From contig NZ_LT594324.1 of the NCBI RefSeq assembly GCF_900089605.1, positions 2,232,001 through 2,296,000 of the forward strand: a stretch of 64,000 bases of DNA. Reading direction: 5' to 3'. Made by a program: the position numbers and the translations under genes. This document shows positions 40,371 to 64,000 of this stretch, piece after piece (the first letter of the stretch is position 1; each line of letters starts with the position of its first letter). The stretch comes from Micromonospora narathiwatensis. Its GTDB lineage: Bacteria; Actinomycetota; Actinomycetes; Mycobacteriales; Micromonosporaceae. The notes beneath the pieces were generated by a model. It was not told the origin of the DNA, ran no database searches, and was given only the letters and a program-made list of their open reading frames with translations.

Positions 40371-41228
40371 TCAGTAGGTGACCCGGACGCCCATCTGCGC
40401 CCAGGTGAGCCGGCCGACGACGCCGTCGGCGATGAGGCCACGCATCCCCTGGTACCAACGGACCCCCGCCACGGTGAGTTCGTCGAAGTCGGTGCCAGGC
40501 GGGCCACACCGGCGGGTGCCGATGAAACGCTTGACGAAAGCGACGTCGTCGCCGGTGCTGCCGCGCCGGACGGTGCGGGACCCGGGCGCGCGCCCGGGCT
40601 GCGGCGGAGGCGGCGCGGTGGCCTTCCGTAGGGCGGCGAGGGTGGCCGAGCCGACGAGGCCGTCCACGGTCAGCTTCTGGGCCTTCTGGAACACACGCAC
40701 CCAGGCGGTGGTCCGTGGGCCGAACGCGCCGTCGACCGCCAGCCCGGCGCCGAGCCGGTTGGCCAGGGTCTGCAGTTCTCGTACGTCGCTGCCCCGGCAT
40801 CCGTTGCGCAGTACCCGGTCGCCAAGTCGGTTCTCCCGCGCGGTGGTGATGCCCCAGGACCGCTGGCTGTCCTCCAGCGTCCGCTGGTGGCTGACACTGA
40901 CGTGCAGGTGCTTGTCATGCGGGTTGGCGCCGGTGTAGCGGGCGGCGGAGAAACCGCGGGTGCGGCTCCAGATCACCCGGTTGTAGATCACGTACTGGCA
41001 GGACGGGTGGGCAATGCACTGGCGGACCACGAGCAGCGGGTCGATGCCGTCGACGTCCACGTCGATGGCGTTGACCGAGCCGTCGTCGCCGTCCGGGTTG
41101 TGGTCCGAGCGGCGGGTCTGGTGGGCGGCGTCGCCGATCCAGCCGTCCGAGGTGTGGTCCCGGTGCGGCCACCGGGTGTTGATCTCTTTCCGAAGCACTT
41201 GCAGCGTGGGTGCCAGGTGCACGCTCAC
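40371..41228 (-). CDS. M15-type endolysin-like peptidase with two peptidoglycan-binding domains
   Basis: A 285-residue protein without a signal peptide. The N-terminal domain (1-120) is the phage lysin type of D-Ala-D-Ala peptidase: SDHNPDGDDGSVNAIDVDVD gives His43 and Asp56, and ANPHDKHLHVSV supplies the last His. Two peptidoglycan-binding domains follow (about 135-195, ending DGLVGSATLAALRK, and 220-283, ending ADGVVGRLTWAQMG). It should cut stem peptides. It is the last gene of the giant-protein cluster, starting one base after the 39-aa gene. Confidence 0.88.
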   Translation of the reverse strand: MSVHLAPTLQVLRKEINTRWPHRDHTSDGWIGDAAHQTRRSDHNPDGDDGSVNAIDVDVDGIDPLLVVRQCIAHPSCQYVIYNRVIWSRTRGFSAARYTGANPHDKHLHVSVSHQRTLEDSQRSWGITTARENRLGDRVLRNGCRGSDVRELQTLANRLGAGLAVDGAFGPRTTAWVRVFQKAQKLTVDGLVGSATLAALRKATAPPPPQPGRAPGSRTVRRGSTGDDVAFVKRFIGTRRCGPPGTDFDELTVAGVRWYQGMRGLIADGVVGRLTWAQMGVRVTY

Positions 41229-41229
41229 G

Positions 41230-41349
41230 TCACTGTTCCTCTCCCGTGGGCAGGTGGTAGTCGATCTCGTCCCCGATGAGGGATTCCGGGTCGTCGTCCT
41301 CCTCGAAGCCGGCGACCTGGTAGTCGGGGTCGACGGTGGCGGCGTCCAT
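41230..41349 (-). CDS. Small acidic protein (39 aa) in the giant-gene cluster
   Basis: ATG preceded by GGAGG at eight bases opens MDAATVDPDYQVAGFEEDDD, ending DEIDYHLPTGEEQ. The product is strongly acidic with no membrane segment, so it is not a normal holin. It ends one base before the endolysin start, which implies coupled translation. A regulatory, chaperone or inhibitor role for the lysin is conceivable. I do not recognise a family. A longer in-frame version starting at 41454 is possible but has an unnatural Pro/Arg-rich leader. Confidence 0.65.
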   Translation of the reverse strand: MDAATVDPDYQVAGFEEDDDPESLIGDEIDYHLPTGEEQ

Positions 41350-41708
41350 CAGCGGTGCCTCCGCTCTCTGCTCGGGCCGGCGCGACGCGGTAGCGACCAC
41401 GCCGGCGGGCCACCCGCACCGCGTCGGCGGTCCGGGCGGCGGGCCTGCGTTCACTGTCGAAATACCTGGTCACGGCGGCAAGGGATGAGTCGGCTATCGG
41501 CGGCGCGGAGACCCGAGCGGTGGTCGCATCCCGCCGATCGAGAAGCCGTGCCGCCGTCCGCCGGGACCCGCCGGCCGGACGGGTGGCGGGCGGTCGCCCG
41601 CGGGGCGGTGCCAGGTCGGCACGTTCGGTGGAGCGGACCGCCGGACGCTTCTGGCACGAGACCGGGCGCCGCCCAGGTGTCGCCGGTGGTCCGGTCGTTC
41701 TCGGGAGG
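41350..41708. other. 359-nt gap in the giant-gene cluster
   Basis: No convincing gene lies here. It is the only long gap in the minus-strand run, so it could hold a promoter for the small protein and endolysin. A GTG frame reading VTRYFDSERRPAARTADAVR begins at 41473 but lacks a ribosome-binding site and collides with the better supported 39-aa gene. Confidence 0.5.
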
Positions 41709-42890
41709 TCAGCGGGCCAGGTCCGCCAGCGCGGCGCGCAGAGCGGTGGCCAGGTCCGCTCTGGACAGGCCGGCGGCGTCGGCGGGCAGCGCGGCGAGCA
41801 CCCGCGCGGCCAGCGCGTCGGCGAGCACCTCGACGTCGCCCGGCACGGCGGGCGCCGGAGAGCTGTCGGCCGGCGTACCGGATCCCGGGTCGCCGTCGGT
41901 GCGCGGTTCGGGCAGCCGGGCCAGCGCCGCCCGTACCGGTGTCGGGTCCGCGGCCTGCCGGGCGACGGCCTCGCCGATGACGCGGACCGTCTGCAGGATC
42001 TCGTCGAGCACCGCGAGGGTGGACCTGCCCTTCGGGATGCCCCCGCCGACGTACTGCCACGGCAGGGCGCGCAGTTGGGTGGCCACCGTCGGGTCCTTCA
42101 GCAGGGCGAGGAGCCGTGCCGCGTCGGTAGCGCCCGCGTTGTCGACCAGGCCCCAGGCGCGCTGGTCCCGTTCGGCTGCGTCCGTGGCCCGGATGCCCAG
42201 GTGCAGCCGGCCCGATCCGGGATCGGTGCCGGCGTACGGCCGGCGGGTCCAGCCGTCGTCGGCCCGGGCCGTGGTGCCGGCGGGTGACCCTGGCCAGCCC
42301 GACCATGATCGCGAGGGCCGTCGCGGGGTCCTCGTAGCCGGCCGGGCGGAACGGGTTGCGGGCCTTCGGGTCGTACGGGTACCAGTCGGCGAGGACCAGG
42401 TCGACCGCGTCGGCCTCGTGTTCGGGCCACCAGGTGCGCCAGTCGTTGGCCCGGCGTCCGCCGGCGTCGACCCGGCGTACCCATTGCAGGGTCCAGCAGA
42501 CCGCGAGCCGCAACCGGCCGTCGTGCCGGGCCGGGTGGTCGCCCACCTGGGCGCGGGTGCGGTCCACGATCGGCGGAACGCCTCCGGTGTCGGGTCGCCG
42601 CCGGTCTGCTGTTCCGGTTCGTGGTGCGGCACCAGGATCAGCCGGCCGGTCCGGCCGGTGGCCTGCCAGGCGGCGACGAACGCGGCGGCGTCCACGTCCG
42701 GGTCCTTGTGCGAGACGATCACGTCGGCGGCGGCGGGCGCCTGAGCCAGCCGTTGCCGCTGGTCGGTCCAGGCGGACGCGGGCAGCCCGTCGCCGGGCCC
42801 GAAGAAGATCCGTACGCAGCTCGTGCCCGGGTAGGTGGCGAGCATGCCGGTCACCGTGCGGGTACCCGGGCACCAGCCGGTCGGCATCAT
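41709..42890 (-). pseudogene. GH26-like glycoside hydrolase-type protein, split by two compensating frameshifts
   Basis: The ATG overlaps the stop of the tail-fibre-like gene. The frame starts MMPTGWCPGTRTVTGMLATY and includes DVIVSHKDPDVDAAAF and LILVPHHEPEQQ (His90-Glu91), reminiscent of GH26-like barrels. Near 42571-42578 sensible sequence moves to another frame (DRTRAQVGDHPARHDGRLRL to LADWYPYDPKARNPFRPAGY). Near 42279-42290 it returns to the first frame (ADDGWTRRPYAGTDPGSG) and runs to the stop. One base appears lost at the first site and gained at the second, about 290 nt apart. The intact product would be about 393 aa. It could be a true lesion or sequencing error. Confidence 0.75.
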
Positions 42891-44686
42891 GCGGGCACCT
42901 CGACGGCCAGCGGTTCCAGGTCGGCGCGGACGGCCTTGACCTCCCAGTTGAAGGCGTGCGAGGCGGGGGAGCCGTCGACCGTGCGGACCCGGAAGACGCC
43001 GTCGCGGACCCGGCCGGCGGCCAGCGGGGAGACCGGCTCGTCGTCCTCGAAGACCGGGGTGAGCTGGACGGTGCGGCCCTCCGGGCGGGTCAGCGCCTCG
43101 AAGTACGCGGGCAGTTCCACCGTGGCGACGCCGCCTTCGAGTCGACCCTCGCCCCGGTAGTAGACGCCGTTCTCCGGTCCCTCCAGCGCGGCGTGGATCA
43201 GTTGCCGGCGTTCGGTGGCGTCGGGCCCGTCCAGCGGGTGGTCGATGGCGAACTGCTTGGACTTGCCCTTGATGACGCCGCTGCCGGCGTTGAGGCTGAT
43301 GGTGTAGCCGCTGCCCTCGTTGAGGCCGAGGTAGATGGCGCCGGAGGAGAACAGGTCGAAGGTGCTGATGCCGCCGCCGCTCCACGAGGCCAGCGGCGGC
43401 GTGTCCGGGCCGACCTTGAGCTTGCCCTTGATGGTCACGTCGCCGCCGAACTCGCCGCGTTTCTCCACCCAGAGGCAGCCCGCGTCGGGTGCGCCGTCTC
43501 CCGAGTAGCCGACCCAGACCCCGCTGCGGTTGAGCAGGTGCAGCCGCTCGGGGCCCTTGGTGTGCATGCGGCCGGCGCCGATGATGAAGTTGTCCGCCGG
43601 CACGTTTATGTTGCCGCCCAGGTTGAGGGCGCCCTGGACGCTCAGGTCGCCGGTGCCGTTGGCGTCCTTGACGACGGTGACCCCGCCGGTGGCCCGGATG
43701 CCGAGGTTGCCCTCGGCGGTCACCGACAGCCCGCCGCGCCCGCGCAGGGTCGCCGCGCGCAGCTCCCGTACCCCCAGGTCGGCGTAGGGCTTGCTGCCCT
43801 CGGTGTACGCCAGGTTGGGGCCGTCGGCGCTGCGGTCGACCAGCTCGAAGCCCTTGCCGGCGCGGAACGACAGTTGGGCGTGCTGCACCCCCGGTCCCCA
43901 GAAGCCGAGCGCGGAGACCACCTGCCCGGTGCTGACCGTCGCGCCCTCCAGGCTGCCCAGGTGCAGCATGCCGCCGCCGATGCGCAGCCGGTCCGCGCCG
44001 TACTGGTGGAACGCGATGAGGTCGTCGGGGTCGTTGTTGTTGGCGATCCGCAGGATCGTGTTCTCCCCGCCGTACGGCCAGTAGCGGATGTACGCCTCGT
44101 CGCCGGAGCCGCCGCCCGGGTCCGGGGGGAAGGTGATGCCGGCCTGCGACCCGGCGCCGACGGCGGGGACGATCGCGCCGACGGGCACCCGCAGCCCGGC
44201 GACCTGCCGGCCGGTGCTCTGCACGGTCACCGTGCCACCGGCCCGGGTCACCTTGCCCAGCAGCACCGCGTGCGCCGGGTCGGTGGGGGCGGTGGCGCTG
44301 ACCTTGACCAGCCCCTCCTCGGTCCACCGGGTTTCCGCCGCGACCCCGCCCTCGTCCCGCCGGTCGGTCAGGAACTCGCGGTACTCCACCCAGACGAAGA
44401 AGGTGCCGTCGCCGGGCAGCGTCGTGCGCCGGTTCTCCGGCACCACGATGACGATGCCGTCACCGTCGACCGCGACGCCCTGGCCGACGGTCACGTCGCT
44501 GCCGGTGGCGGTGAGTTCCAGGCCGCTGACCACGCCCATCGGCCGCAGCAGCCGGGCGGCCAGGTTCTGCCGGGCCAGCAGGTAGTCCAACGCCTGGGTG
44601 AGGTCGTCGGCGCGCAGGTACTCGTAGTCGTAGTACCGGGGCCGTGCCATCGGCAGCGGCAGGTCCTTCTTCCAGATGATCGTCAT
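42887..44686 (-). CDS. Tail-fibre-like structural protein
   Basis: A 599-residue protein. The N-terminus PRYYDYEYLRADDLTQALDY with MGVVSGLEL (50-58) resembles an attachment module I associate with large phage-tail-like loci. The middle (about 230-450) is repetitive beta sequence of fibre type (GGNINVPADNFIIGAGRMHT). The C-terminal block KQFAIDHPLDGPD and LIHAALEGPENGVYYRGEG (about 474-515) is shared with many phage and bacterial fibre proteins. No signal peptide is present. GGAG lies before the ATG, and its stop overlaps the GH26-like gene. It likely binds a surface. Confidence 0.72.
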   Translation of the reverse strand: MTIIWKKDLPLPMARPRYYDYEYLRADDLTQALDYLLARQNLAARLLRPMGVVSGLELTATGSDVTVGQGVAVDGDGIVIVVPENRRTTLPGDGTFFVWVEYREFLTDRRDEGGVAAETRWTEEGLVKVSATAPTDPAHAVLLGKVTRAGGTVTVQSTGRQVAGLRVPVGAIVPAVGAGSQAGITFPPDPGGGSGDEAYIRYWPYGGENTILRIANNNDPDDLIAFHQYGADRLRIGGGMLHLGSLEGATVSTGQVVSALGFWGPGVQHAQLSFRAGKGFELVDRSADGPNLAYTEGSKPYADLGVRELRAATLRGRGGLSVTAEGNLGIRATGGVTVVKDANGTGDLSVQGALNLGGNINVPADNFIIGAGRMHTKGPERLHLLNRSGVWVGYSGDGAPDAGCLWVEKRGEFGGDVTIKGKLKVGPDTPPLASWSGGGISTFDLFSSGAIYLGLNEGSGYTISLNAGSGVIKGKSKQFAIDHPLDGPDATERRQLIHAALEGPENGVYYRGEGRLEGGVATVELPAYFEALTRPEGRTVQLTPVFEDDEPVSPLAAGRVRDGVFRVRTVDGSPASHAFNWEVKAVRADLEPLAVEVPA

Positions 44687-44724
44687 GCGTTTCTCCGCTG
44701 TCTGTGTCGGTCGCGGGCGGGTGG

Positions 44725-46560
44725 TCAGCGCGGTTGGACGGTGTCGTAGCGCAGGCCGCTGGAGATTTCGCCCGCCCCGGCGTGCCGGGCGCGGCCGAGC
44801 CAGAGATGCACCGAGCCGTCGGTCCACCGGGCCAGCTGCCACTGCCGCAGCATCCGGCTTCCGGCGCGCGGCACCTCCTCCTCCGGGAAGGCCAGCTCCA
44901 CCAGCCGCCCGTCCCGTTCGCGCCAGTCGAGCAGCCGGCTGTAGCCGGTCACCGCGACCGGGTCCCCGTCCCGGGCGGGCTGTTGCAGCGGAACCCGGCG
45001 CAGCCGGACCACGTCCGGGCGGTCCTGCGTGGGGCCGGGCAGCAGCGGCACCCAGTTCTCCGGCACGGTGGTGGCGAAGGCGTACGACAGCGCCGGCACG
45101 TCCGCGTCGGCCGGCGGGCGGGGCGGCACGGCCGCCCGGGCGACCTGGGCGGTGCGGTCGATCGGTCGGCCGGTGGCACCGGTGACGATCCGTTCGATCG
45201 CCCAGGCGAGGTTGGCGGTCTCGTCGCGCCCGAGGCGGACCTCCTCCACCGGGGCGGAGTCGAGGGTGGCGGCGGCGGTGGCCGGCAGCACCAGCACGTC
45301 GGCCGTTCCGCCGCCGGCGGTGCTGGCGGGCCGGAACAGCGCGGTGGACTCCGGGGCGGCCGGCACCAGCGTCTGCCCGCCGAAGGTGTCGGTCACCAGC
45401 AGCGAGCGGATCCGGGTGGCCGAGCCGACCGGCAGCTCCAGCGGCAGCAGGAAGTGGTCGTTGGCGTAGACCAGGCCGTACTCGACCACGAACATCCGGG
45501 CCAGGTCGCCCGCGCCGGCGCCGACACCGGCCAGGTTGATCCGGGCGTCCTCCAGCTCCCAGAACCGGGTCGACGGCATGCCGGCGTACGCCACCGGGGT
45601 GGGCAGCAACACCTTCACCACGTCGTCGACGTCCGCCCGGGCCTCCAGCGTGGTGCCCGGCTGGCGGTCGAAGTGGTACCAGTCGAGCCGGTTCCCGACG
45701 TACTCGCGCGCGGTGAGCACCAGTTCGGCCCGGCCGTCGTGCGCGGCGACGGCGGCCTCGTACTCCATCCGCTCGCGCCGCCACGCCGACCCCTCCGGGC
45801 CGGGGGTGCTGAACAGCGGGGTGAAGTCGGCCGGCGGCCACGGCGGCGCGGCCGGCCGGGAGCCGCCGGGAGACAGTACGCCCGGCAGTTGCAGCAGGTA
45901 ACCGGGGGGCGGTCCGGCCGGTCGGGGCGGTACGCCCAGCCAGCTCAGCCAGTCGGCGACCGCCTGTCGGGCGGCGGCGAGCAGCGCGGCGGGCACCCCC
46001 ACCTCGCGGATGAACCGGTCGTCGGCGCAGGCGCGCAGCGCCAGCTCCCCGTGCGGCACCCGCCCGGCGGCGACGCGCAGGTAGCCGACGGTCTCCGGGT
46101 CGGCCGCCGAGGCACCGTCGGGTGGGCTGGCCGGCACCGGGTAGGTGGCGCACACCGCCGGCGCCAGTTCGCCGGCGCCGGCGGCGGCGAGCAGCCGCAG
46201 TAACTGCTGGCCGCTCTCCACGGCGAAGCGCAGGTCCCCGGCGGTCGCGGCGGCCTCCCGTTCCACCAGCGTCTCCCAGGGCACCCCGGCGGGCAGCCCC
46301 ACCGCCCCGGCGTACGGGCCGGGCCGGTAGCGGGTGAAGCGGGCCACCTCGGCGTGCACCCGGGCGGCGACCGGCGAGCCGCCGTCCTCGCCGGTGAACT
46401 CGCCGAGCTGCCACTGTCGGGCGAGCAGCCACAGCGGGTCGGCGATCCGGGCGTCCACGGCCGGCGCGAGGTCGGCCCGTCGGGTACGCGGCTCCAACCG
46501 GGTCCAGGTGGTGACCGACGGTGGATCGGTGCCGGCCAGCGGCTGTTCGGCGGTGGTCAC
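44725..46560 (-). CDS. Large conserved protein of unknown function (611 aa)
   Basis: The N-terminus VTTWTRLEPRTRRADLAPAV then ADPLWLLARQWQLGEFTGED (40-59) is a block I recall from uncharacterised proteins that travel with other giant proteins in actinobacteria and myxobacteria. YAFATTVPENWVPLLPG lies near 445, and the end is WTDGSVHLWLGRARHAG. There is no signal peptide or TM segment. GGAGG lies before the GTG. A repeat separates it from the 1503-aa gene upstream. No function can be given; a structural role in the cluster's product is inferred. Confidence 0.7.
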   Translation of the reverse strand: MTTAEQPLAGTDPPSVTTWTRLEPRTRRADLAPAVDARIADPLWLLARQWQLGEFTGEDGGSPVAARVHAEVARFTRYRPGPYAGAVGLPAGVPWETLVEREAAATAGDLRFAVESGQQLLRLLAAAGAGELAPAVCATYPVPASPPDGASAADPETVGYLRVAAGRVPHGELALRACADDRFIREVGVPAALLAAARQAVADWLSWLGVPPRPAGPPPGYLLQLPGVLSPGGSRPAAPPWPPADFTPLFSTPGPEGSAWRRERMEYEAAVAAHDGRAELVLTAREYVGNRLDWYHFDRQPGTTLEARADVDDVVKVLLPTPVAYAGMPSTRFWELEDARINLAGVGAGAGDLARMFVVEYGLVYANDHFLLPLELPVGSATRIRSLLVTDTFGGQTLVPAAPESTALFRPASTAGGGTADVLVLPATAAATLDSAPVEEVRLGRDETANLAWAIERIVTGATGRPIDRTAQVARAAVPPRPPADADVPALSYAFATTVPENWVPLLPGPTQDRPDVVRLRRVPLQQPARDGDPVAVTGYSRLLDWRERDGRLVELAFPEEEVPRAGSRMLRQWQLARWTDGSVHLWLGRARHAGAGEISSGLRYDTVQPR

Positions 46561-46571: not shown

Positions 46572-46620
46572 CTGTTTGCGACCGCGGGGCTCGCAAATCC
46601 GGCTCGCTCCTCGCGCTCAC
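46572..46620. repeat. Micromonosporaceae-type intergenic repeat
   Basis: On the minus strand the gap begins GTGAGCGCGAGGAGCGAGCC and continues GGATTTGCGAGCCCCGCGGT, a sequence I recognise as a frequent intergenic or gene-end repeat in Micromonospora and Salinispora. It contains a perfect dyad, TTTGCGA (46575-46581) and TCGCAAA (46591-46597). The first bases of the element supply the TGA stop of the 1503-aa gene. Confidence 0.65.
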
Positions 46621-49600
46621 GGGGTCTCCGTTCCGCCCTGCGGGGTCAGCGTCGCGTCCGGCACGAAGTCGGTGGTGGTCGTGGTCTCGGCCACGTTGGT
46701 CGGGAAGTAGAGGGCGGGCAGGAACTGCCCGGCCGCGCCGAGGGAGTCCACGTCCACGGCCCGGGCCAGGGCCAGGTCCAACGCCTCCTCCAGCACCTGG
46801 GCGAGGTTGCCCGGCTGCCAGCTCGTCGCACCCCGCGGCGCCAGGCCCAGCAGCACCGCCTGCGGGGCGGCGGCGCCGGGCGCGTCGTACTCGAAGGTGA
46901 GCCCGGTCTGCACCCGCCCGGCCGGCACCACCTCGGTCCACTCGTCGACCACCAGGCCGTGCACCGGGCGGGTCGGGTCGATCCCGCCGGGGGCGACCAC
47001 CACCAGGGACAGTGGTTCGGTGCCGGCCCTCGGCGGCGCCTCGCCGACCCAGCGGTCGCCCGGGGCGTACGGCAGTTGCGCCACCCGGACGGTGGCGGGT
47101 AGTCGTACCACGCCCCCGGCCCCGAGGGCGTCGACCGTGGTGAGCACCTCCTGAAGCCGGCCGACCGCCGGGCGGACCCGGCCGTAGCGGGACAGCCAGC
47201 GGCGTACCGGATGGGGTGAGCCGCCCTGGAGCGCGTCGCTGGCCGCCAGGGCGGTGGCGAGCTGCGCCGGCTGTGGCGCGCTGGCCCGCGGGAACACCGG
47301 CAGGTCCGGGCCGAGTAGGGCCCGCAGGCGGGCGATCTGCGCCTCCCGGCGGCGGGCCGGCGGCGCGTCCGGCCGGTCGAAGTCGGTGGCGGGGACGCAT
47401 CGGCACGCTCCGGGCGGGCACGGGGTGCGGTCGTGCAGCTCGGCGATCACCCGGCAGTGCGCGGCGAGCCGGCGGTCCAGCTCGAACCGGGCGGTGGCCG
47501 CGGTGTCGGCGACCGCCCCGGCGCTGTCCGGGCGCGGGGGCGGCGGCACCGCGCCGAGCACGCCGAGGCCGGCGGCGACGGTGAGCAGGCCCCGCGCGGT
47601 CGCCTCGGGCCAGCCCGGCTCCGGCGCTGCGGGCAGCGCGGCCAGCCCGGCCGCGGTCTTCCGGACCGCCTGCCAGGTCTCGTCGGCCTGGGCCCTGGTG
47701 TTCTCGTCGACCTGCGGCGGGACCGACGGGTCGGCGCCGAGGTCGGCGGCGACCACCGGGCGGGACCGGCCGTACAGGTCGCGCAGCACGTTGACCGCGT
47801 GCAGGAACTCGGCGAGGCTGACCCGGTCCAGCGGCCAGCCGGGATCCCGGCCGTAGTCCAGCTCCAGTGTCCAGTCGTCGCCGACCTCGGCCGGCCGCAG
47901 CGGCCCCCAGGCGTCCAGCGCGATCCGCCGGTCCAGCTCGGCGTCGTCCTGGTGGCCGGGGTGCGGCGGTGCGGCGAGCAGGTCCACCGCCGGCGTCTGG
48001 ATCCGGTCCAGGCTCGCCGGCCGCCAGACGGTGGCGGTGACGCCGTCCGGGGCGTGCCAGCGGTAGCGCCAGAACACCCGGAACGAGGGCGGCAGCAGCA
48101 CGGAGGTGAGGGCGTCCACGGCGGGGCCGGCGATGCGCGGGTGGTCGCCGCGCCCGGCCGGCCAGTCCTGCCGGAGCCGGGTGAAGCGGTCGTCGACGTT
48201 GACCAGCAGCAGCACCCGGTGGGTGAGCGCCGTCCCGGTGACCGGGGTACGGGTGACGTGCAGCTCCGGCGGGTTGGTGGCCGCCCCGGAGGCGGCGTCG
48301 ACCGCCGCCGCGGCCCGGTTCAGGTCGCCCAGCGCGAGCTGGTGCACGCTCTCGGCGAGCAGCGTGTCGGCCACCGCGTCGACCGCGTCGGCCAGGTCGG
48401 CGAGGACCGTGGTGACGGCGGCGCGTTCGACCGCCGGCCGGTTGCGCAGCCACTGGTCGAGCTGGCCGGCCTGGTGCAGCCGGTGCAGCTCCAGGCCGTC
48501 CACGGTGGCCGTCGACTCGACGGTGACGGCGATCGTGGCGCCGCCGTCGTCGGTCGGGTCGACGCGGTGCGCGCGTACCGGGGCGAGGGCGCGGAACGTC
48601 GGCAGGAGCTGGTCCCACGGGCCGGCCGGGTGGTCGTGCAGGCCGCGTTCGAAGCGGTAGCCGAGCAGCGCGCCGAGGCTCTGGCCGGCGCGTACCCCGT
48701 CGAGGAGCTGCTCGGCGAGGCGGACCCGGCGGGAGGAGAGCTCCACCGCGAGCGCCGGGTCGCCGCCGTGGCTGCGGGACGCGCTGCGCAGCACCGCCGC
48801 GGTGACCGCCTGGGCCGGAGAGGGGGCGTGCACGTGCCCGGCGCCGGCCGCGGCCAGCGGCAGCTTCGCCGGGGCCACCGATTCCGGGATGTCCGTCGGG
48901 CGGTCCACCATGGTGGGTTTCGGCGCCGGTGCGAGGTCGACCACCCAGCCGTAGCCGCCGACGTGCACGCCGGGCGTGGGGCCGGCGGTGAGCTGGGCCA
49001 GCCGCCGGGTGGCCAGCGAGGTGATCCAGGCGTCCAGCCGGTGGCTGGCCAGCCCGAGCGTCCCGGCCACGTGCCGTTCCAGGTCGGCGGTGGGCAGCCC
49101 GGCGTCGAGGGCGTCGCGCAGCCCGGTCAGCGCGGTACGGAAGGCCCGCAGGTCGGCGGTGGCGCGGACCTGCCGGGGATCGCTCTGGACGCCGGCCAGG
49201 TACCTGCCGACGGGCTCGGAGGTGTCCGGCACCGGCGTGTCCAGCCGCCTCCGCAGCACGCGGGTACGGTCGTGCGGGCGGATGTCCACCAGCTCCGGCT
49301 CCGGGATCTCCGCCGCCGCGGGCAGTCCCGCCTCGGTGGCGAAGGCGTGCGCGGCGGCCGAGTGCTCGGCGATCAGGGCGGCCCGCAGCAGCCGGTGGAA
49401 CAGCGGCACCGGGCCGTCGCCGGGGCTGACCGGGATCTCGTCGCCGCGCAGCCCGACGGCGGACAGCGCCGCCAGGTACGCCTGGACCCGGTCGGCGCGG
49501 GGTCGCCCGGGTCCGTCGAGCAGCGGGGTGCCCAGCGCGTACGCCTGCCTGGCGAAGACGGCCAGGGAGAGCCGGGGATCGGTGGGGCCGCCCAGCCCGA

Positions 49601-54100: not shown

Positions 54101-55933
54101 GAACAACCGGCCGTCGGCCGTCCCGACGAAGAACCGGTCGCCGGTGAGCAGGTCGCCGCCGTTGGTGACGACCCGGGTCACCGGGTCGTCGGCGGCCAGG
54201 GCGGCGCGGGCGCTGCGCAGTCCGCTGGTCCCGGTGTGCCACCAGCCGTTCTTCGCGGCCTGCTCGATCACCGCGCGGGTCAGGTCGCCGACGCCCCGGC
54301 CGTCGCTGAGCAGGGTGTCCAGGACCGTGCCGCCGGCCGGGACCCGGGCCGGCGGCACCGCGCTCCCGCCGCCGGCCAGCCGGGTCAGCGCCGTCGTCGC
54401 GGCGTCGTCGTCCACGCGGCGGGCCAGCGGCCCCCGGGGGCGCAGCAGCCGGCGGACCGGGGCCGACGTCGCCGCCTTCGCGCCCGGATTGGCGTCCAGT
54501 CGCCGGTCCAGCGGGCCGGCGGAGCCGGCGGCGAGTCCGCGGGCCGGCACGTCGACCAGATCGTGCACCGGTTGGGTCAGGGCGACGAGCCGGTCGTCGT
54601 CGACGGCCGCGCCGGGGGCGTCGGGGTCGACCCGGCGGGCGTAGAGCGCGGTGGCGGTGTCCCGGGCCGCCTGGCCCCGGCGCAACTGCTCGTTGGCGGC
54701 GCGGATCTCGGCGGCCCGCTGCCAGGCCGCCGCCGCCAGGTCCTCCTGGTGCCGCTGCACCACCTGGGTGCCGAGCGCGGCCGCGGCCCGGTAGCGGGGG
54801 TCCAGGTTCAGCCCGGCCAGCCAGCGTGGTTCGACGCCGGGGGCGGGCAGCCCGTCCTCCTGGCTGTGGATGTCGCCGTACAGCGGCGGGGTGAGCCGGT
54901 CCGCGCTGTGCCGCAGCAGCCCGGTCAGGGTGCTCTGCCAGGCGGCGCGGACGTCCTCGGCCCAGCCGGTCGGGGTCATCCCGGGCGCGGCGAGCGCGCC
55001 CTCGAAGCCCAGCACCGAGCGGCCCTCGACGCCCTCGTCGGGCTGCTGCGGCAGGCCGCCGCCGGGCGCGGCGATGTCCACCGGCTGCCGGCCGACGTCG
55101 GCCGGCAGCGGCCGGGCCCGCAGCCGGCGGGCCAGCGACTCGAAGTCGCCGTCCGGCCCGGTCCGGAACGTCCAGTGGTGGTAGACGGGCAGCAGCACCG
55201 GGCCGTCCGGCCCGGGGTGCGCCGATCCGGGTCCCCAGGCCGGTGCGAGCGGCCCGGTGTCGTCGACCGGTTCGCCGAGACCCGCGCGGACGCCGGCCGC
55301 GAAGGCGGGGACCACGGCGGCCAGGTAGTCGGTGCCGGCGGCGAGCCGTCGCGGGCAGAGCAGCCGGGACAGGGTACGTTCCGGGGCGGTTGCGATCACC
55401 GCGGCGACGTCCTCGTCCTCGACGGTGACCAGCACCTGGGCGTGCGCCCAGGCCCACGAGTCGGCCAGCGTGGGCAGTTGCCGCACGGTGGTGGCGAGCC
55501 GGGGCAGCGGCTGGCCCGCCTCGGTCCGCAGTTCCCCGCCGCCGTCGACAGGTACGACGACCAGGACCAGCCAGGGGCGCAGGGCGCCCCGAGCGTCGGG
55601 CCGGGCCGGTGTGTAGAGCCAGGGCAGGTCGGGGCGGTCGAACTCGACGGCCGCGAACAGCGACACCTCGACGTTCTCCGCGCCCGGGGCGGGAAAGCTG
55701 CGGATGATCTCCTGCGGGTCGATGCCGACGACGTCGCCGGGGCCGTGCAGCACGGCGGTGGAGGTGCCGGTGATCTCGCGGGTCTCGCCGGTGGCGGTCT
55801 CGGTGCCCAGTGCGGTGACGCTGAGCTCGACCGTGGCCCGGGCGTGCGGCAGCGCTCCGGTCAGCGGGTCGACGTCGGGGACCACGCGGGCGACGCCGTC
55901 GCGTACCCAGGGCAGGAAACGCAGGCCACCCAT
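51125..55933 (-). CDS. Giant beta-propeller/FG-GAP repeat protein (1602 aa)
   Basis: A 1602-residue protein. Residues 1-450 are unrecognised. About 590-915 hold repeats of the type GRLFERRRFGPDLWVWHDHG and RDSRLFERSWDGDRWVW, suggesting a beta-propeller. About 1055-1210 contain three FG-GAP/VCBS units (VALADLDGDGRPELIVAY, VDMTGDHVPDLLVF, VADISGTRRPDLVV) that could bind calcium. The C-terminal part (from 1391, NHEMSREMLWREFPADPKQ) is conserved-looking but unassigned. There is no signal peptide. GGAGG precedes the ATG, one base after the DUF6603 stop. A recognition or scaffold role is likely. Confidence 0.75.
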   Translation of the reverse strand: MGGLRFLPWVRDGVARVVPDVDPLTGALPHARATVELSVTALGTETATGETREITGTSTAVLHGPGDVVGIDPQEIIRSFPAPGAENVEVSLFAAVEFDRPDLPWLYTPARPDARGALRPWLVLVVVPVDGGGELRTEAGQPLPRLATTVRQLPTLADSWAWAHAQVLVTVEDEDVAAVIATAPERTLSRLLCPRRLAAGTDYLAAVVPAFAAGVRAGLGEPVDDTGPLAPAWGPGSAHPGPDGPVLLPVYHHWTFRTGPDGDFESLARRLRARPLPADVGRQPVDIAAPGGGLPQQPDEGVEGRSVLGFEGALAAPGMTPTGWAEDVRAAWQSTLTGLLRHSADRLTPPLYGDIHSQEDGLPAPGVEPRWLAGLNLDPRYRAAAALGTQVVQRHQEDLAAAAWQRAAEIRAANEQLRRGQAARDTATALYARRVDPDAPGAAVDDDRLVALTQPVHDLVDVPARGLAAGSAGPLDRRLDANPGAKAATSAPVRRLLRPRGPLARRVDDDAATTALTRLAGGGSAVPPARVPAGGTVLDTLLSDGRGVGDLTRAVIEQAAKNGWWHTGTSGLRSARAALAADDPVTRVVTNGGDLLTGDRFFVGTADGRLFERRRFGPDLWVWHDHGTPPGTTVATSGAVAPPGRVYVRTRDSRLFERSWDGDRWVWTDCGAPPTGVHSRPVVGGSVLYVLGGDAALWRFDPANRSWTSLGTPVGGSERLWGSPRPSFVGVLVATSANRLFAHNGQQWRQFNGPAVWGSPAAEHSYPGSSPRLGISYVTPNGQLVSLYGDGSTQQHDPVPEGRRVISLAQDAPPLGHEEGPAIVVLAASTANPADVRLMRRFVWYHDLHERYYWGWDAVTTATPAGGLGTHRPGPFAGDSREGELFAVTADGRLTSYRWGYPFGTSWVDHGTPADTRGAGPVDAPAPADVRFTPKVGLLASLLFTHTVVQGAGSRPRTQIAHNIGDDGVVQEPALTSAVDGPPIPAIARATATTLGTVAPAGRPTLVTAALLPGTAAGTCRIAYWLGRNADANGTATGGWTGPYELPDPVGADVAGIDVALADLDGDGRPELIVAYAADRPGRADNRVFYRIGWRLDDDGRATNGWTDSLPTPMQLDRFTGVGIDVVDMTGDHVPDLLVFATGTVGATPVARYLTGRGVNRRGRVVGGWTAPRAVPDETATARADGAGIAVADISGTRRPDLVVARRTGATVGYRVAFDLDPDGVPVDWSPPVTVTGAADPGARGCTVAVADLRADLVADRAKMGDDFMAAAARHQGRLAPAQALARDHRPAPVDVATAAAAVRETVRPETAVAGEVLAGLALGDGDLVDALPDSGDPLRRLLAGVTFDVPAYELLRGLSQEHVVPNLPAVAPETMTALAANPRFIEAFLVGLNHEMSREMLWREFPADPKQTWFRQFWEVRGAMSAGAPLTDIPPLTDPAWRNGPLGGHLTAVGAPGEQSLVLVIRGELLRRYPSTVVTMRAATWTGPQERTPTGPDVLPIFNAWLSPDLLLFGFPYTAEVARGAGRQADGPAGHFFVLREQPAAPRFGVDRTGDPPPPDAVVFAARPGRNAADAALALLQRPVLLARHASDLLPTPESQP

Positions 55934-55934: not shown

Positions 55935-58900
55935 TCAGCGGACCTCCAGTTCGGCGGGGACGATCCGGGGCTGCGGCACCCGCACCCGGGGTCGGCGCAG
56001 GGCCCCGGCACGGCGGGACGGGGACCGTTCGGTGGTGTCGACGTCGTGGCGCGGGACGGGGACGGTGGCCCCGGCCGGCCGGGGCCCCGGGGCGGTGCCG
56101 GCCGCACGGTGCGGCGCGCGGTCGGCGATCGGGTCGCCGTCGCCGGGGCGGTGCGGCGGGTCGGCGGCGAACCCGCCGTCGCCGGGGCCGCCGTCGGTCA
56201 CGGCTAGCGCCGGGCCGGCGAAGCGGGCCGGGCCGGAGCGGCGGGTGCCGGCGAACGCGGCCGGTGCGGTGGCCGCGAACCGCGCGAGCAGGTCGCCGCC
56301 GCGGGCCGCCGTCAGGCCGCGGGCCGCCGGCAGCGGTCGTCCGGCGGCGTCCGGGTCGTCGATGATGATCCGGTCGTACGCCGAGTCGTCGCCGAGCGCG
56401 GCGAACGCGGTCAGCGTGGTCTCCGGCAGCGCCGTGCCGTCGGGCAGCGCCACCGTGCGGCCCGCCGCGAGGCGGACGAAGCCGGGGGTGGTGAGCTGCT
56501 CCTGCGGTGACAGGTCGCGGAACTGGCCGGGGGCGAAGTCGTCCTCGACCACGTCGCCGAGCCGGCCGGCGATCCGGTCGTCGCCGGCGCCGACGCTGAC
56601 TCCGGTCAGGGTGAACCGGTTCGGGCCCGTGATCCTGGAGGTGCCCATCCTGGACAGGTCGGTGTCCAGCGGCAGGACGTTCTCTCGTACCGACAGCAGG
56701 GCGCCGGGTTGCAGCAGCATCGGCCCGGCCCAGCCGGCCAGGTCGCGCAGGGTGACCGGCTCGCCGGCGGTGAGCGCGGGCCGGGCCGCCCAGGCGTCCG
56801 GGGCGGACAGCGCGTCGCGCAGCGCCTCTGCCGCGGAGACGTACGTGGGCTCGTCGTCGGCGGCGATGTCCCCGTCGGTCCAGGAGAACTTCGCCGACAC
56901 CTCCCAGAACAGGAACTTGATCCGGGCCTCGCCCCAGGCCCGCCACGGGCCGGGTCCGCTGACCCCGACCAGCAGGTTGACCGCCAGCAGCTCCTTGTCC
57001 TTGAACTTCAGCGACACCGTCGCGCCGATCTCGGCGGTGAACCAGAACGGCTTGAACTGGAACATCACGTCCAGCCAGGCCCGGCCGTCGATGACGAACC
57101 CGCCGCCCTCGAAGTGCAGCTTCAACTCGGCGCCGAACTGCGCGGTGTTGCTGGTGACGGCGAGATACGCCGACAGGTTCAGGCCCTTGCCCGACTTCTG
57201 CAGGGCGATGGTGAACCGCTTGACCGGCGGGAAGCCGGGCGGGGCGGTGTAGCGCGGGTGGAAACCGCCGATGGAGACGGCGAACGCGCTGCCCTCGCCC
57301 CACCTGGCGCGCAGCGCCATCTCCCCGGAGACCGGGCGGCCGAACAGCTTGGAGTCGATGAGCGCGGCGTCGACGCTGATCTCCCGGCGGGCGAAGTCCA
57401 CGATGCCCGCCGAGTCGAGCCGGAACTTGCCGGCCTCCTTGAAGTCGATGACCAGCTTGCCCAGCAGCAGGATGCGGACCGGGTCGGGGAACTCCACCAG
57501 CACGGCCAGGTCGGCGACGACCTGCCCGGCGAGGAAGTTCAGCCGTACCATCGCGCCGAGCACGGTGCCGGTGGTGTCGACCGGGAAGATCCGGCTGAGG
57601 GTGGCGATGACGGCGGGCGCGTTGCCGACCGGGTCCGTGGGGAAGAGCAGCGCGTCCAGGGTGCCGGCGCGGGCGGCGTTGCGCACCTCCTCCGGGTTGG
57701 ACCGCCGGTTCCAGCCGACCACCAGGCCGAGCCCGGTGATGGAGATGCCCCAGAACAGCATCAGCCCGGGGAACCACTCGTACGTTCCGGCGAGCAGCAG
57801 CGAGAACGTGTGGCCGCCGTCGGCCTCGGTGAGGCGGCTGCCGTCCGGGTTGCGGGTGTTGAGGATGGCGGTGGCCTGGAGCCGGAACCCCTTCATCGGC
57901 GACATGGCGGAGGTCATGCCGAGTTGCAGGGCCCCGGCGTACATGCCGCGTGCCTCGTCGACGAAGAGGTAGCCGCCGCCGGAGACGATGCCGTTGTCCA
58001 TCCGCAGCCCGACCCCGTCCGGGCCCTTGAAACGGGGGCGCAGGTCGGCCGCGCCGAGGTTGCCGGCGGTGGCCGGGCCACCGCCGCCGGTCGGCAGCGC
58101 CGGCGGGAAGGTCAGGTCGGCGCGGATGCCGATGTTCTCCACCACGACGTGCAGCGGGCCCAGGGCGGCCCGGACCGTGGTGGTCAGGGTCAGGCTCAGC
58201 GACCGGGTGGCGGTGGACGCCTCCAGCGCGATCCGCAGCCCCTCGACGCCGAGGCCGTGCCAGGACAGGTGCACCGGGTACTCGGCGGCGAGCGCGGCGG
58301 CCCCGGACAGGTGCAGCCCGCCCCGCAGCGACCAGGCCAGCCCGAGGTCGAGACCGACCCGCAGCCCGTCGGCGGGGAACAGTTTGGCCAGCAGCCCGTC
58401 GCCGTCGCCGGGGCGGATCACCAGTTCCGCCTGGCCGGCCCGGATGCTCAGCTCGACGTCGTCGCGGCCGGCGCCGAGGCTGGCCTGCCCGCCGATCACG
58501 AGCTGCCCGACGGCGAGGTGGGTGCCGCCGGGGGCGCCGAGGATCCAGCCGGGCTGCCCGGCCGGGGCGATCCGGGCGATCTCGGCCGCCCACTTCACCA
58601 CCGCGCTGTCGCCGCTGAACGTCACCCCCGCGCTGTTGACGGCCAGCGCCGGGCCGGCGCCGCTGAGGTCGGTGGCGACGTTCCACGCCCCGATCGCGCC
58701 CGCCAGGTGCGCCTCGCCGGTCGGCGCGAGGATCACCGTGAACCGGCCGTCCCAACTGGCCAGGCCGACGGTGACCCCGACGCCGAAGGTGGGGTTCCAC
58801 GGCGCCAGCCCGGCGCCGGGCGGCGGCGTGCCGTCGGGCGTACGCAGGCCGCTGAAGCGCAGCCGCAGCAGGCTGTCGGCGAGCCGCCGGCCCACCTCGC

Positions 58901-59618
58901 CCTGGTCCGGACCGAGGCCGGGGCGTACGCCCTGGTCGGCGTCGAGGCCGAACGCCCGCAACGCCCGGGCCAGCCGAGGCAGCAGCCGGGCGGACAGTTC
59001 GGCGACCCCTTCCGGGGTGCTCCAGCCGTCCGGGGCGTACAGCGCGCGGAAGTAGGCCTCGGGGTCGCGGACCAGGTCGACCACCCGGTCCAGGCGCAAC
59101 TCGTCGCGGCGCTTGGGCAGCCGGATCGGCGCGTCACCGGGCGGCATCGGCGGGCTGGGCGGGTTGGCGGTGGCCGGGTCGAGCAGGCCGAGCAGGTCGA
59201 GCACCGGCAGCGACCAGGGTGCCCGGCGCGTCAGGTAGGTCAGCACCAGCAGGTCGACCAGGTCGTCGGCGAGCTCGGCGGGCAGCCCCGGCACGTCGGG
59301 CAGGCCGTTCTTCACGCTCGGCAGCTCATTGATCTTCCCGAACACCTTCCCGACCGCCTCGGCGAGCTTGCCGAGCCCGTCGAGGGTGTCGAGTTTCGCG
59401 TCGTTGCGGACCACCGACACCGCGGCGAGGGCCGCCTCGACCGTGGCCGCCCACTCCTCGAAGCGGGCGGCGTCGAAGCCGCTGACCGCCTCCAGGTCCC
59501 AGCCGAGCGCGCGCATCAGCCGGGCCCGCCGCCACGGGTCGTACGCGGACAGCACCGGCTCGGCGAGCAGCCGGACCTCGTCCCAGAGCAGGGCGAGGGC
59601 GTTCTTCGGCTCGGTCAT
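55935..59618 (-). CDS. DUF6603 domain protein (1227 aa)
   Basis: A 1227-residue protein. The N-terminal 220 residues are helical. From about 290 to 880 it is a long run of amphipathic beta strands with the blocks I associate with DUF6603 (GLRMDNGIVSGGGYLFVD near 533, LFWGISITGLGLVVGWNRR near 640). The rest is Pro/Arg-rich. DUF6603 has no known function; its repeated strands suggest an elongated barrel or groove. There is no signal peptide. It lies 28 nt after the phosphatase gene and one base before the propeller gene. Confidence 0.75.
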   Translation of the reverse strand: MTEPKNALALLWDEVRLLAEPVLSAYDPWRRARLMRALGWDLEAVSGFDAARFEEWAATVEAALAAVSVVRNDAKLDTLDGLGKLAEAVGKVFGKINELPSVKNGLPDVPGLPAELADDLVDLLVLTYLTRRAPWSLPVLDLLGLLDPATANPPSPPMPPGDAPIRLPKRRDELRLDRVVDLVRDPEAYFRALYAPDGWSTPEGVAELSARLLPRLARALRAFGLDADQGVRPGLGPDQGEVGRRLADSLLRLRFSGLRTPDGTPPPGAGLAPWNPTFGVGVTVGLASWDGRFTVILAPTGEAHLAGAIGAWNVATDLSGAGPALAVNSAGVTFSGDSAVVKWAAEIARIAPAGQPGWILGAPGGTHLAVGQLVIGGQASLGAGRDDVELSIRAGQAELVIRPGDGDGLLAKLFPADGLRVGLDLGLAWSLRGGLHLSGAAALAAEYPVHLSWHGLGVEGLRIALEASTATRSLSLTLTTTVRAALGPLHVVVENIGIRADLTFPPALPTGGGGPATAGNLGAADLRPRFKGPDGVGLRMDNGIVSGGGYLFVDEARGMYAGALQLGMTSAMSPMKGFRLQATAILNTRNPDGSRLTEADGGHTFSLLLAGTYEWFPGLMLFWGISITGLGLVVGWNRRSNPEEVRNAARAGTLDALLFPTDPVGNAPAVIATLSRIFPVDTTGTVLGAMVRLNFLAGQVVADLAVLVEFPDPVRILLLGKLVIDFKEAGKFRLDSAGIVDFARREISVDAALIDSKLFGRPVSGEMALRARWGEGSAFAVSIGGFHPRYTAPPGFPPVKRFTIALQKSGKGLNLSAYLAVTSNTAQFGAELKLHFEGGGFVIDGRAWLDVMFQFKPFWFTAEIGATVSLKFKDKELLAVNLLVGVSGPGPWRAWGEARIKFLFWEVSAKFSWTDGDIAADDEPTYVSAAEALRDALSAPDAWAARPALTAGEPVTLRDLAGWAGPMLLQPGALLSVRENVLPLDTDLSRMGTSRITGPNRFTLTGVSVGAGDDRIAGRLGDVVEDDFAPGQFRDLSPQEQLTTPGFVRLAAGRTVALPDGTALPETTLTAFAALGDDSAYDRIIIDDPDAAGRPLPAARGLTAARGGDLLARFAATAPAAFAGTRRSGPARFAGPALAVTDGGPGDGGFAADPPHRPGDGDPIADRAPHRAAGTAPGPRPAGATVPVPRHDVDTTERSPSRRAGALRRPRVRVPQPRIVPAELEVR

Positions 59619-62600: not shown

Positions 62601-64000
62601 CCCCGGTCGGCAGCCCGAGCCGGGTACGCAGGGCGAGGTCGTCGGCGTCGTTGGGCGTGGCCGACCAGCCGGCCAGCGCGGTCAGCGCCGTGCGGCCCGG
62701 TTCCCCGGCGTCGCCGGCGGGAGCGAACCGGTCCGGGGTGTTGCCCCACGCCTGGAAGACCACGAACGCGGCCATCGCGTTGCGGACGATCCGCCGGCCC
62801 AGCGCCGAGTTGACCACCGCGTCGGTCACCCAGGACCGGGTCATGTTCCAGTCGTCGGTGACCTCGTGGTCGTCGGCGACCATGTACGTCGACACGTTGG
62901 CGAGCTGTCGGCGTACCGCCGCCAGGCCGGTCCGGAATGTGGCCACCGCCAGCCCCTGCCGCTGCCAGCGCTCGTACCGCTCGATGATCTCCTTCTGCTG
63001 GGCACTCGGCGAGTACGCCCGGCCGGCGCGCATCAGGTCGTAGACCGTCTCGCCGGGCCGGCGGCCCTGCGGGTCCTTCAGGATCCGGGTGTCGGCGGGC
63101 AGCACGTGCTCGAACCTCGGCCAGCTCGCCGGCCACAGCACGTCCGACCAGGCCAGCAGGTACATGCACAGGTATTCGCGCAGCGACATCAGGTGGCTGT
63201 CGGCGGCGCCGGAGGTGAACTTCGCGTCCCGCTCCATGGTGGTGGCCCGCTTGCCCGGCAGGTACGTCACGTCGGCCGGCGGCGAACTGGTGCCGACCGG
63301 CATCGTCTCCGGCGCCAGCCCCAGCCGGGCGGCCACCCCCTCGTGCGCGGGCACCGCCGGGTCGCTGCCGACAGGTGGCAGGGCGCCGTGGCCGTGGATG
63401 ATCGCCAGCAGCGGGTCGGCCACGTCGTCGGCGTAGATCTGGTCGCCGCCGAGGACGAGCTGGTGCGGGCGCAGCGTCGGATCGCCGCCGGCCGCGGCGA
63501 TGATCGGGTCGAGGACGGGGAAGGCGTCCTGGCCCTCGCCGTGCGGCTTGCGGCACGAGCCGTGGAAGATGCGCAGCTGGTTCGGGTCGGTCGGCGGGGT
63601 GACGAAGGTGGGCACGGCGGGCGTCGCGGCCGGCGCCTGCGGGTGGCCCTGGTACGTCAGCGCGGCGCGGGCGGTGGCCGGGTCGGCGGCCACCACGTCG
63701 GCGTCGAAGAGGCTGCCCGCGCCGGATCCGCCGGAGAACGACAGGTCGTAGCCGTAGAGGGTGCCCGGTTGCAGGGTCACCCCGGTGACGGTCACCGCGA
63801 CGACGTGCAGCCGGTCGGCGAGCCGTACGGTGGCCCGGGTCCCGGTGCCGACGGTGGCGCCCCGGGCGTAGCCGGGCGCGGGCCCGAGCGCGAAGACGCT
63901 CAACGTCACCGTGCAACCGGCGCGCAGGGCGACGAAGACGGTGACGCTCGTCGGGTCGACCCGGCGCACGATCGGGCCGCAGAGCACGAGGGGCAGGCCG
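59647..64000 (-). CDS. Giant PhoD-like metallophosphatase with peptidoglycan-binding-like domain, 5' end outside window
   Basis: At least 1450 residues; the sequence is still open at the edge (GLPLVLCGPIVRRVDP), and the real start is probably only a few codons further. The PhoD-like core shows HGSCRKPHGE, LVLGGDQIYADD, YMVADDHEVTDDWN and LLGGDIHFGS, the metal-binding motifs of alkaline phosphatase D-type phosphoesterases. A peptidoglycan-binding-like repeat (RLQHDLATLGFRTPGEPDGT) follows, and then about 500 residues without a known domain. Usual PhoD proteins have about 500 residues and a Tat signal, so this is greatly enlarged. It is the first visible gene of the cluster. Confidence 0.82.
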   Translation of the reverse strand, partial: GLPLVLCGPIVRRVDPTSVTVFVALRAGCTVTLSVFALGPAPGYARGATVGTGTRATVRLADRLHVVAVTVTGVTLQPGTLYGYDLSFSGGSGAGSLFDADVVAADPATARAALTYQGHPQAPAATPAVPTFVTPPTDPNQLRIFHGSCRKPHGEGQDAFPVLDPIIAAAGGDPTLRPHQLVLGGDQIYADDVADPLLAIIHGHGALPPVGSDPAVPAHEGVAARLGLAPETMPVGTSSPPADVTYLPGKRATTMERDAKFTSGAADSHLMSLREYLCMYLLAWSDVLWPASWPRFEHVLPADTRILKDPQGRRPGETVYDLMRAGRAYSPSAQQKEIIERYERWQRQGLAVATFRTGLAAVRRQLANVSTYMVADDHEVTDDWNMTRSWVTDAVVNSALGRRIVRNAMAAFVVFQAWGNTPDRFAPAGDAGEPGRTALTALAGWSATPNDADDLALRTRLGLPTGVTKEGRLVRPAGALTYHYTVTWPRYQLVALDTRTWRQYPGGSGNPGGLLLDDHPLDDMLTGGGVLGDDAVTVVAQPVALFGVPILEQLAQPLAKATAGRWTADAEDAWVASDAAVHKILARLFAAAPPDEKGVRRRRLVLLGGDIHFGSAERIRYSATLPYACGPDPAKPYEGVNRTEGVLAGFVSSAFRNEDKMTRLLHDVGYVPLLDVTGRIDLVGWANELPGKEGQRMRAGVQVTVGADDTTGWWVSGRPAVSDIDARKLLGRQPDWNVYVQFLRHDEADPTVRRDGVPEAVVDPAGLPRDQALAQYLTAARNLDHYKGSWGNGKEIVGRNNLGEITFTWPAGECKSATQRLWWHLPGESRAAALSTYTVDLSFGCSLTKPPPYGGFVLRSGDHDATATAKARYDEVDRPANLVTERWVSRLQHDLATLGFRTPGEPDGTYGIITYWAVREFQAYARRERTAVEPAGATAPRWSDRLQPVDVPEAERYLGPISGVADLATQEAIQHWLDKRWRCPVVVESWQVSGDTPQRLDQPNVWLFDDVTATDRRLYSRVVTGRPADAGAAPPGHPELIRLGAYHAHATDAQWSGPVLDGESELLPEAVLPRPQGHATGPTLTELAATSAGGGDAGTRAARQLSTFKVLRAVAENQVPDAAGGWLDRVAADDPAVLRFGPFGWRAHGPQAAPTTLPPALDINAEPGEMWAYLALLRATDRDAYDVLGGQGGINAVPGWGKDGGGLLHPELRVPRARPAETDSTGAAREAVGTTLELLGLRSWHWMHRYALALRTHDGVRRGLWTLARQRLHDLLATDWDTPDPAVTPTVPNVPGADGKPRRVRVGDLFTSERSVAALACWQQYRAHQLVAVGPPATGAEKPEFRTRPRAASELHTVLTRAKALGQDFSGPPTSWADAHELALITAVGQVVATDAPVATALTALDRWPAWPTGHRYTLPVAALPVAEQTLSAARNSLRLDLSDLPRVTA

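Follow-up and report, generated by a model that had tools for sequence, protein, structure and literature searches.

Contractile injection systems (CIS), of the extracellular (eCIS) and Streptomyces types, are the closest described counterparts of the locus analysed here, together with the tail fibre and endolysin modules of phages, PhoD-like phosphatases and proteins of the DUF6603 family (PF20248). The locus is a cassette in a 64,000-nucleotide stretch of Micromonospora narathiwatensis DNA (contig NZ_LT594324.1, positions 2,232,001-2,296,000; hereafter the window), in a genome that is a single contig of 6.61 Mb. It is a minus-strand run of nine closely packed genes, from window position 64014 down to 40371, and its core encodes a DUF6603 protein and three proteins that we call B, p1503 and p611. 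Family scans covered the seven intact large proteins of the operon and two frames of a broken gene, leaving aside a 39-amino-acid (aa) open reading frame (ORF). The cassette resembles CIS in its CIS13-like fibre block, in the lack of export signals and in that one of the related loci (L033) has an eCIS_core gene close by. It differs from them in that no sheath, tube, baseplate, spike or AAA ATPase was recognised among the proteins scanned against family libraries, as an earlier sequence-only reading of the window had reported for all but the spike, and in that its presence is not linked to that of a sheath within the genus. With phage modules it shares PHROG families in the C-terminus of its fibre and in its lysin; it differs in that the same proteins gave no head, tail-tube, tape-measure, terminase or holin family in PHROGs. 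The PhoD-like protein has relatives in the same slot that match PF09423 and, in the window, a large C-terminal extension. The DUF6603 protein matches its family over nearly the whole domain model, and in a second locus type DUF6603 occurs alongside a distant B relative. No paper naming DUF6603 or PF20248, or describing this combination of families, was found in a literature search whose coverage left out subscription journals and preprints; the abstract of a study on actinobacterial CIS effectors (PMC13277306) does not mention the unit.

A p611 search of a genome-contig collection returned 19 loci, from Micromonospora, Actinomadura, Microbacterium, Virgisporangium, Phycicoccus, Solirubrobacter, Acrocarpospora, Kofleriaceae and gamma- and deltaproteobacterial assemblies. 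A plasmid collection gave 14 p611 records (six Streptomyces, Nocardia, Rhizobium, Paraburkholderia, Gemmatirosa and four haloarchaea), 12 of which were examined; H3 and H4, the two left out, belong like H2 to S. longwoodensis. Further loci came from the searches by phylum, by genus and with PhoD and from a single phage-labelled record; in all, 44 p611 loci outside the window were labelled with profiles. Since p611, the fibre or the PhoD-like gene served to find these loci (L numbers; genomes have G numbers), the counts measure which genes accompany p611; some of the loci are closely related to one another. On the same strand, p1503 lay upstream of p611 or was fused to it in 42 of the 44 loci. 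The two misses, retained in the total, are L039, where p611 stands alone, and L063, at a contig edge. B lay ahead of p1503 in 39 loci, the remaining three of the 42 being at contig ends. DUF6603 lay ahead of B in 31; the available DNA ends at this point in seven loci, and in L031 DUF6603 is found about 5 kb downstream instead. The order DUF6603, B, p1503, p611 was conserved in loci spanning Actinomycetota, proteobacteria, Myxococcota, Gemmatimonadota and haloarchaea, with core protein identities falling to about 30% between haloarchaea and Micromonospora.

A phylum sample of 296 genomes served as a co-occurrence check free of the bias of p611-based locus finding. p611 was present in nine of these genomes, DUF6603 in 10 and both in seven (p = 1.2e-10). 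The two genomes with p611 only are fragmented assemblies; G184 and G238, which hold short p611 pieces at contig edges, are included in these counts and stand outside the 44 loci. In G182 (L056/L057), p1503 and p611 are fused in a single 2071-aa frame, and in Rhizobium and Halobellus B and p1503 are each divided among adjacent genes, as expected for parts of one complex. These results indicated that DUF6603, B, p1503 and p611 almost certainly form a conserved functional unit. The unit is real, widespread, present at different sites and, within the genus, not tied to a contractile tail; its fixed-order co-occurrence across bacteria and archaea bore out the suggestion of the sequence-only reading that these families make up a system. 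The peripheral genes (fibre, lysin, PhoD) differ between lineages, which would be compatible with chance neighbours of unrelated roles. From haloarchaea to Micromonospora, however distant, the core genes stand in the same order and on the same strand; this refuted that explanation for the core, and we find it barely conceivable overall. One Kofleriaceae genome (G312) carries three copies of the core (L033, L081/L082 and L083/L084) with different neighbours, one of them adjoining a gene that by eye resembles a gyrase subunit. At L033 (10775-14916), eCIS_core and DUF2589 proteins are encoded a few genes from the core.

No function has been described for any of the four core families. The family of the first is certain from its match to PF20248 (E = 1.4e-110, 370.7 bits, cut-off 27), which covers nearly the whole domain model. 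Its predicted structure, modelled for residues 280-1110, was rich in strands. The 32 strands of at least seven residues analysed gave an alternation score of 3.13, as against 1.5 (standard deviation 0.2) in shuffled sequence, and Foldseek matched the model to outer-membrane proteins (E from 2e-5 to 8e-4). As modelled, the protein is a large amphipathic beta meander. B is conserved at its ends (about residues 1-520 and 1270-1600) and variable in the middle, where the window copy has FG-GAP/Kelch repeats (FG-GAP_3, E = 9.8e-7). Propeller repeats were found in at most five of 13 B proteins scanned singly, along with stray matches of single members, for example to DUF3892, and B had no sequence relative in the PDB. 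The window p1503 matched no Pfam or PHROGs family at E ≤ 0.1, had one NCBIfam match (E = 0.087) far under its cut-off and had no convincing PDB relative; 15 aligned p1503 sequences gave weak, single-member Pfam matches to DUF745 (E = 2.1e-4), CATASP (0.003) and Peptidase_M75 (0.04). An alignment of 17 p611 sequences contained 46 invariant columns and an invariant N-terminal motif, DPxWxLxRQxQxGE. The window p611 matched no family over cut-off in Pfam, PHROGs or NCBIfam (best Pfam E = 0.093) and no PDB sequence, and its best Foldseek match had E = 0.19, from a model with a predicted local distance difference test score (pLDDT) of 64.

The three genomes of the phylum sample with DUF6603 only (G192, G222 and G234) represent a different locus type, which contains a distant B relative. 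This relative was identified by hhalign (probability 97%, E = 9e-11, three-sequence profile) and by hmmsearch (E = 2e-11, G234 alone); no p1503 or p611 relatives were seen in these three DUF6603 loci. G192 (L071/L072) and G222 (L073/L074) encode a further large protein starting with LVPI/LVPLR, of 1226 aa in the former and split in the latter. In G192 a gene resembling the MBL fold lies ahead of the DUF6603 locus (Lactamase_B, E = 0.005, under cut-off). In G234 (L075) DUF6603 is part of a protein of 3233 aa, and two genes of the T6SS_HCP family (E = 1.6e-14 and 2.2e-35) lie upstream.

The sequence-only reading had described nine minus-strand genes with overlaps or short gaps, and its coordinates and sizes agreed with our re-called genes (Table 1). 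Intergenic distances from the PhoD-like gene to the GH26-like gene were, in order, 28, 1, -4, 56, 38 and -4 nucleotides, with the start of B taken as the ATG at 55933. About 360 nucleotides separate the GH26-like gene from the 39-aa ORF, and 1 nucleotide separates the latter from the lysin gene.

Table 1. Genes of the cassette; positions are those of the window.
Feature	Position	Strand	Remarks
PhoD-like metallophosphatase	59647-64014	-	1455 aa; peptidoglycan-binding-like region; first gene of the operon; start 14 bases beyond the window edge
DUF6603 protein, core gene 1	55935-59618	-	1227 aa; PF20248
B, core gene 2	51125-55933	-	1602 aa; FG-GAP/Kelch repeats
p1503, core gene 3	46617-51128	-	1503 aa; no known family
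p611, core gene 4	44725-46560	-	611 aa; no known family
Fibre-like protein	42887-44686	-	599 aa; CIS13-type N-terminus and phage-protein C-terminal domain
Hydrolase-like gene remnant ('GH26-like')	41709-42890	-	Broken; tblastn of four relatives
39-aa acidic small ORF	41230-41349	-	Kept in relatives
Endolysin-like protein	40371-41228	-	285 aa; predicted from PHROG endolysin and PG_binding_1 matches

The large proteins had also been said to lack signal peptides. No signal peptide or clear membrane segment was evident in the operon proteins by hydropathy (no dedicated signal-peptide program was run), the highest 19-residue Kyte-Doolittle mean being 1.82. The window flanks were judged from gene calls. 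An oppositely oriented gene, ABC-transporter-like by eye, lies beyond the operon start, and the right flank, where inspection of 30 kb had been advised for tail genes, showed by eye no tail-type locus in gene calls to 59 kb. Elsewhere in the window, the G+C content drops to 0.58 at 16001-18000, compared with about 0.73, and no confident gene was called between 15.7 and 20.5 kb. Short tandem repeats (units of 12 to 57 bp) cluster at 36277-37063, a stretch without a confident gene.

The genes around the constant core varied. In 16 loci, the window among them, the first gene of the operon is PhoD-like. The window protein had no Pfam match; we labelled it PhoD-like because same-slot relatives match PF09423 and motifs were seen by eye. 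The relatives in L037 (E = 2.3e-10, 40.5 bits) and in the Kofleriaceae locus K5 (E = 6.7e-8, 32.5 bits) exceeded the cut-off of 27, and those in G050 (E = 3.5e-5, 23.6 bits) and G322 (E = 8.4e-5, 22.3 bits) fell below it. PhoD-headed loci were recognised by profile in L036, L037, G050, K5 (with a 3.3-kb gap), G322, G381, G461 and G424, and by fitting contig coordinates in L018, L020, L021, L022, L024, L026 and L030. Many loci gave no PhoD profile match, for example L031, L038, L040, L064-L070, G105, G182 and G249. The head slot encodes an M64 peptidase in G105 and G261 and a WD40 protein in G182, and in Gemmatirosa its product has a sub-threshold Nal1-like match (E = 0.003). G249 has wall-hydrolase-type genes (SLT and PG_binding) upstream of the core, one gene beyond the head slot. 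On the other side of the core, p611 is followed by an Amidase_2 gene in L032, by an S8 peptidase gene in Nocardia (L070) and a WD40 protein gene in L064, both by annotation, and, judged by eye, by other kinds of fibre-like gene in L029, L033 and L034; in L028 a TIR-like gene lies about 4 kb past p611. Haloarchaeal versions are annotated with lamin-tail and BGTF surface domains. Variable genes around a constant core led us to read the cassette as a fixed scaffold with exchangeable enzymes.

Some of these neighbours would also suit an apparatus of the cell surface or for nutrient acquisition, with the PhoD-like phosphatase and modules that bind peptidoglycan or glycans at its centre. The position of the PhoD-like gene at the operon head, a PG_binding_1 region in the PhoD-like relatives of L036 and G322 and the haloarchaeal surface annotations point in this direction. 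However, the PhoD-like and core proteins have no evident signal peptide, the PhoD profile is unmatched in the many loci named above, and a nutrient role leaves the fibre and the lysin unexplained. We regard such an apparatus as distinctly unlikely.

In Micromonospora and in Actinomadura fibrosa, the fibre gene follows p611. Residues 15-108 of the window fibre matched NF053767 (CIS13_fam; E = 1.2e-10, 41 bits), which agrees with the phage-tail-like N-terminal block described from the sequence alone, at a score far under the 370-bit family cut-off. This match of about 94 N-terminal residues was present in the window copy and in four of seven fibre-like proteins scanned. C-terminal residues 468-597 matched phrog_28536 (E = 3.6e-12), a domain common to phage proteins without an assigned function. 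Among 151 Micromonospora genomes, p611 was found in 23 and a full-length fibre in 12, all within the 23 (p = 7e-12). G382, with a p611 match of E = 8e-4 over 60 residues, was dropped from the p611 carriers, and G370 and G459, with partial fibre matches, from the fibre carriers; G459 had no p611 match. The run PhoD, DUF6603, B, p1503, p611, fibre, lysin was found in G322, G381, G461 and G424, and the flanks of the G322, G461 and G424 cassettes, judged from gene starts, were unlike those of the window. In G410, another Micromonospora, fibre profile positions 12-91 weakly matched (E = 3.3e-4) a 1159-aa frame (L101, G410:C10:24999-25238) situated some 20 kb from a sheath match; this may be the fibre of that genome's own contractile system.

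The gene listed as GH26-like by the sequence-only reading proved not to be intact in the window copy and had no GH26 match in Pfam. Compared with four relatives, it has a frame change near 42.56 kb, and about 150 of their codons are absent near 42.28 kb; its pieces, in two frames, were about 90%, 85-92% and 68-81% identical to them. Intact frames of 526-558 aa occur in L017-L020, and the gene is present in some cassette copies only. The 39-aa ORF was 76, 69, 69 and 72% identical in L017, L018, L019 and L020, respectively. The last gene had been called a phage-like lysin, and its product is an endolysin, with predicted activity, by its matches to the endolysin families phrog_1493 (E = 3.3e-23) and phrog_2649 (E = 5.7e-22) and to PG_binding_1 (E = 2.8e-23). 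Its N-terminal part is presumably M15-like; no Pfam M15 match was found.

The CIS13-like N-terminus raises the possibility that the cassette is an accessory locus of the genome's contractile injection system, supplying a fibre or cargo. The only PF04984 (Phage_sheath_1) match in the genome lies at 1,550,802-1,551,059, about 0.72 Mb from the cassette, in a compact contractile locus (L014, G000:C1:1540000-1559999) with sheath, tube, VgrG-like, TssE-like and baseplate genes. Ten proteins scanned from this locus included neither an AAA ATPase nor a fibre, and the missing fibre would fit an accessory role, as would the eCIS_core gene near L033. Genome-contig carriers had a sheath over cut-off in 14 of 19 cases, including all 10 with a fibre-like gene at the locus, and the sheath match of the window's own genome is over cut-off as well. 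This link of the fibre carriers is misleading because 117 of the 151 Micromonospora genomes have a sheath match anyway (113 over cut-off) and two of the 12 fibre carriers have none. Within the genus, a sheath match was present in 18 of the 23 genomes with p611 and in 10 of the 12 with a full-length fibre (p = 1 in each case). In the phylum sample, a sheath was present in three of nine p611 carriers versus 29 of 287 other genomes (p = 0.06), and six of the nine carriers had no sheath match. Moreover, G322 and G381, each a single contig, carry the run from PhoD to lysin without a PF04984 match; a diverged sheath missed by this profile is possible there. With no sheath association in the within-genus test, we dropped the accessory role as the main reading and consider it very improbable. 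The 'tail-appended' role proposed from the sequence alone was likewise not supported, with no sheath match near the cassette, a core independent of the sheath in the genus and two single-contig carriers without a detectable sheath.

A phage remnant was also considered and dropped, as no virion genes were found; one match, to phrog_1224, is filed under head and packaging and described as endolysin. No p611 or p1503 relatives were confirmed in IMG/VR contigs. The sole p611 match labelled as phage came from an unverified faecal scaffold whose neighbouring genes look chromosomal by eye. This record, filed as 'Bacteriophage sp.' (L041, MT835531.1), carries DUF6603-B-p1503-p611 and is probably bacterial DNA.

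We tentatively favour a sheathless particle with interchangeable enzymes that is released by lysis, and infer how it is assembled and released, what it targets and what DUF6603 does, as follows. The sequence-only reading had likewise put forward an assembly built inside the cell and set free by lysis, which may hold. The whole region would be one discrete transferable cassette, with a core of four giant proteins acting together and headed in this lineage by the PhoD-like phosphatase. B, p1503 and p611 would build a sheathless protein scaffold, and DUF6603, as an amphipathic beta-meander protein, may be its membrane- or lipid-contacting part. The lineage-specific enzymes (PhoD, peptidases and wall hydrolases) would be an interchangeable payload. 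In Micromonospora and one Actinomadura, a fibre with an adaptor of injection-system type would have joined the particle to recognise its target, and in Micromonospora also a lysin to pass the wall. Since signal peptides are lacking, the particle would exit by cell lysis. Wall hydrolases in separate lineages (the window endolysin, the G249 SLT and PG_binding genes and the L032 Amidase_2) support this proposal, as do the fixed gene order, the co-occurrence of p611 and DUF6603, the G182 fusion, the cassette boundaries, the linkage of the fibre to the core, the CIS13-like fibre N-terminus and the barrel-like matches and amphipathic strands of DUF6603.

Several points weigh against it. The barrel-like matches of DUF6603 had Foldseek TM-scores of 0.10-0.24 and VIA root-mean-square deviations of 9.6-14.6 Å, and with such values they show shape, not homology; the models themselves are of low confidence (mean pLDDT 64 for p611 and 66 for DUF6603). 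Haloarchaea are not known to have murein, so that passing a wall could not be what the core does everywhere. Neither a holin nor a secretion gene was recognised. The fibre and the lysin are accessories of a subset: a full-length fibre occurs in only 12 of the 23 Micromonospora carriers, neither gene was recognised in most loci beyond Micromonospora, and no fibre was recognised in the four haloarchaeal loci. The adjacent peptidases, WD40 proteins and TIR-like gene would also fit an intracellular conflict system.

The last point leads to the strongest rival, an intracellular scaffold that would gather enzymes in the cell for stress or biological conflict, with the fibre and lysin as a local addition in one lineage. 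It would agree with the hydropathy results, with a patchy distribution (nine of 296 genomes in the phylum sample, plus plasmid and megaplasmid copies) and with the variable core-side enzymes, namely M64, S8, WD40 and TIR-like. On the other hand, the seven window proteins matched no PADLOC family at E ≤ 0.01, no NTPase, nuclease or sensor was recognised in the core, and the full-length fibre was found only alongside the core, in 12 of 12 genomes. We take this alternative seriously while rating it as somewhat unlikely. The data separate the sheathless particle and the intracellular scaffold poorly.

A gene order conserved across several bacterial phyla and haloarchaea, for four large genes whose families have no described function, points to a shared machine that is apparently undescribed. 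In its widest form, which we hold to be unlikely, it could be a class of sheathless machines common to bacteria and archaea. Four giant soluble proteins would then make up the particle, DUF6603 would refold or sit as a giant amphipathic beta sheet in or on membranes, the enzymes would be exchangeable, and in actinomycetes the fibre would aim the particle and the lysin would aid wall passage. For this soil actinobacterium, the cassette suggests a molecular machine independent of the usual contractile tail. The fibre found without a detectable sheath in two single-contig genomes raises the question of what an injection-system-type fibre may dock to when there is no contractile tail.

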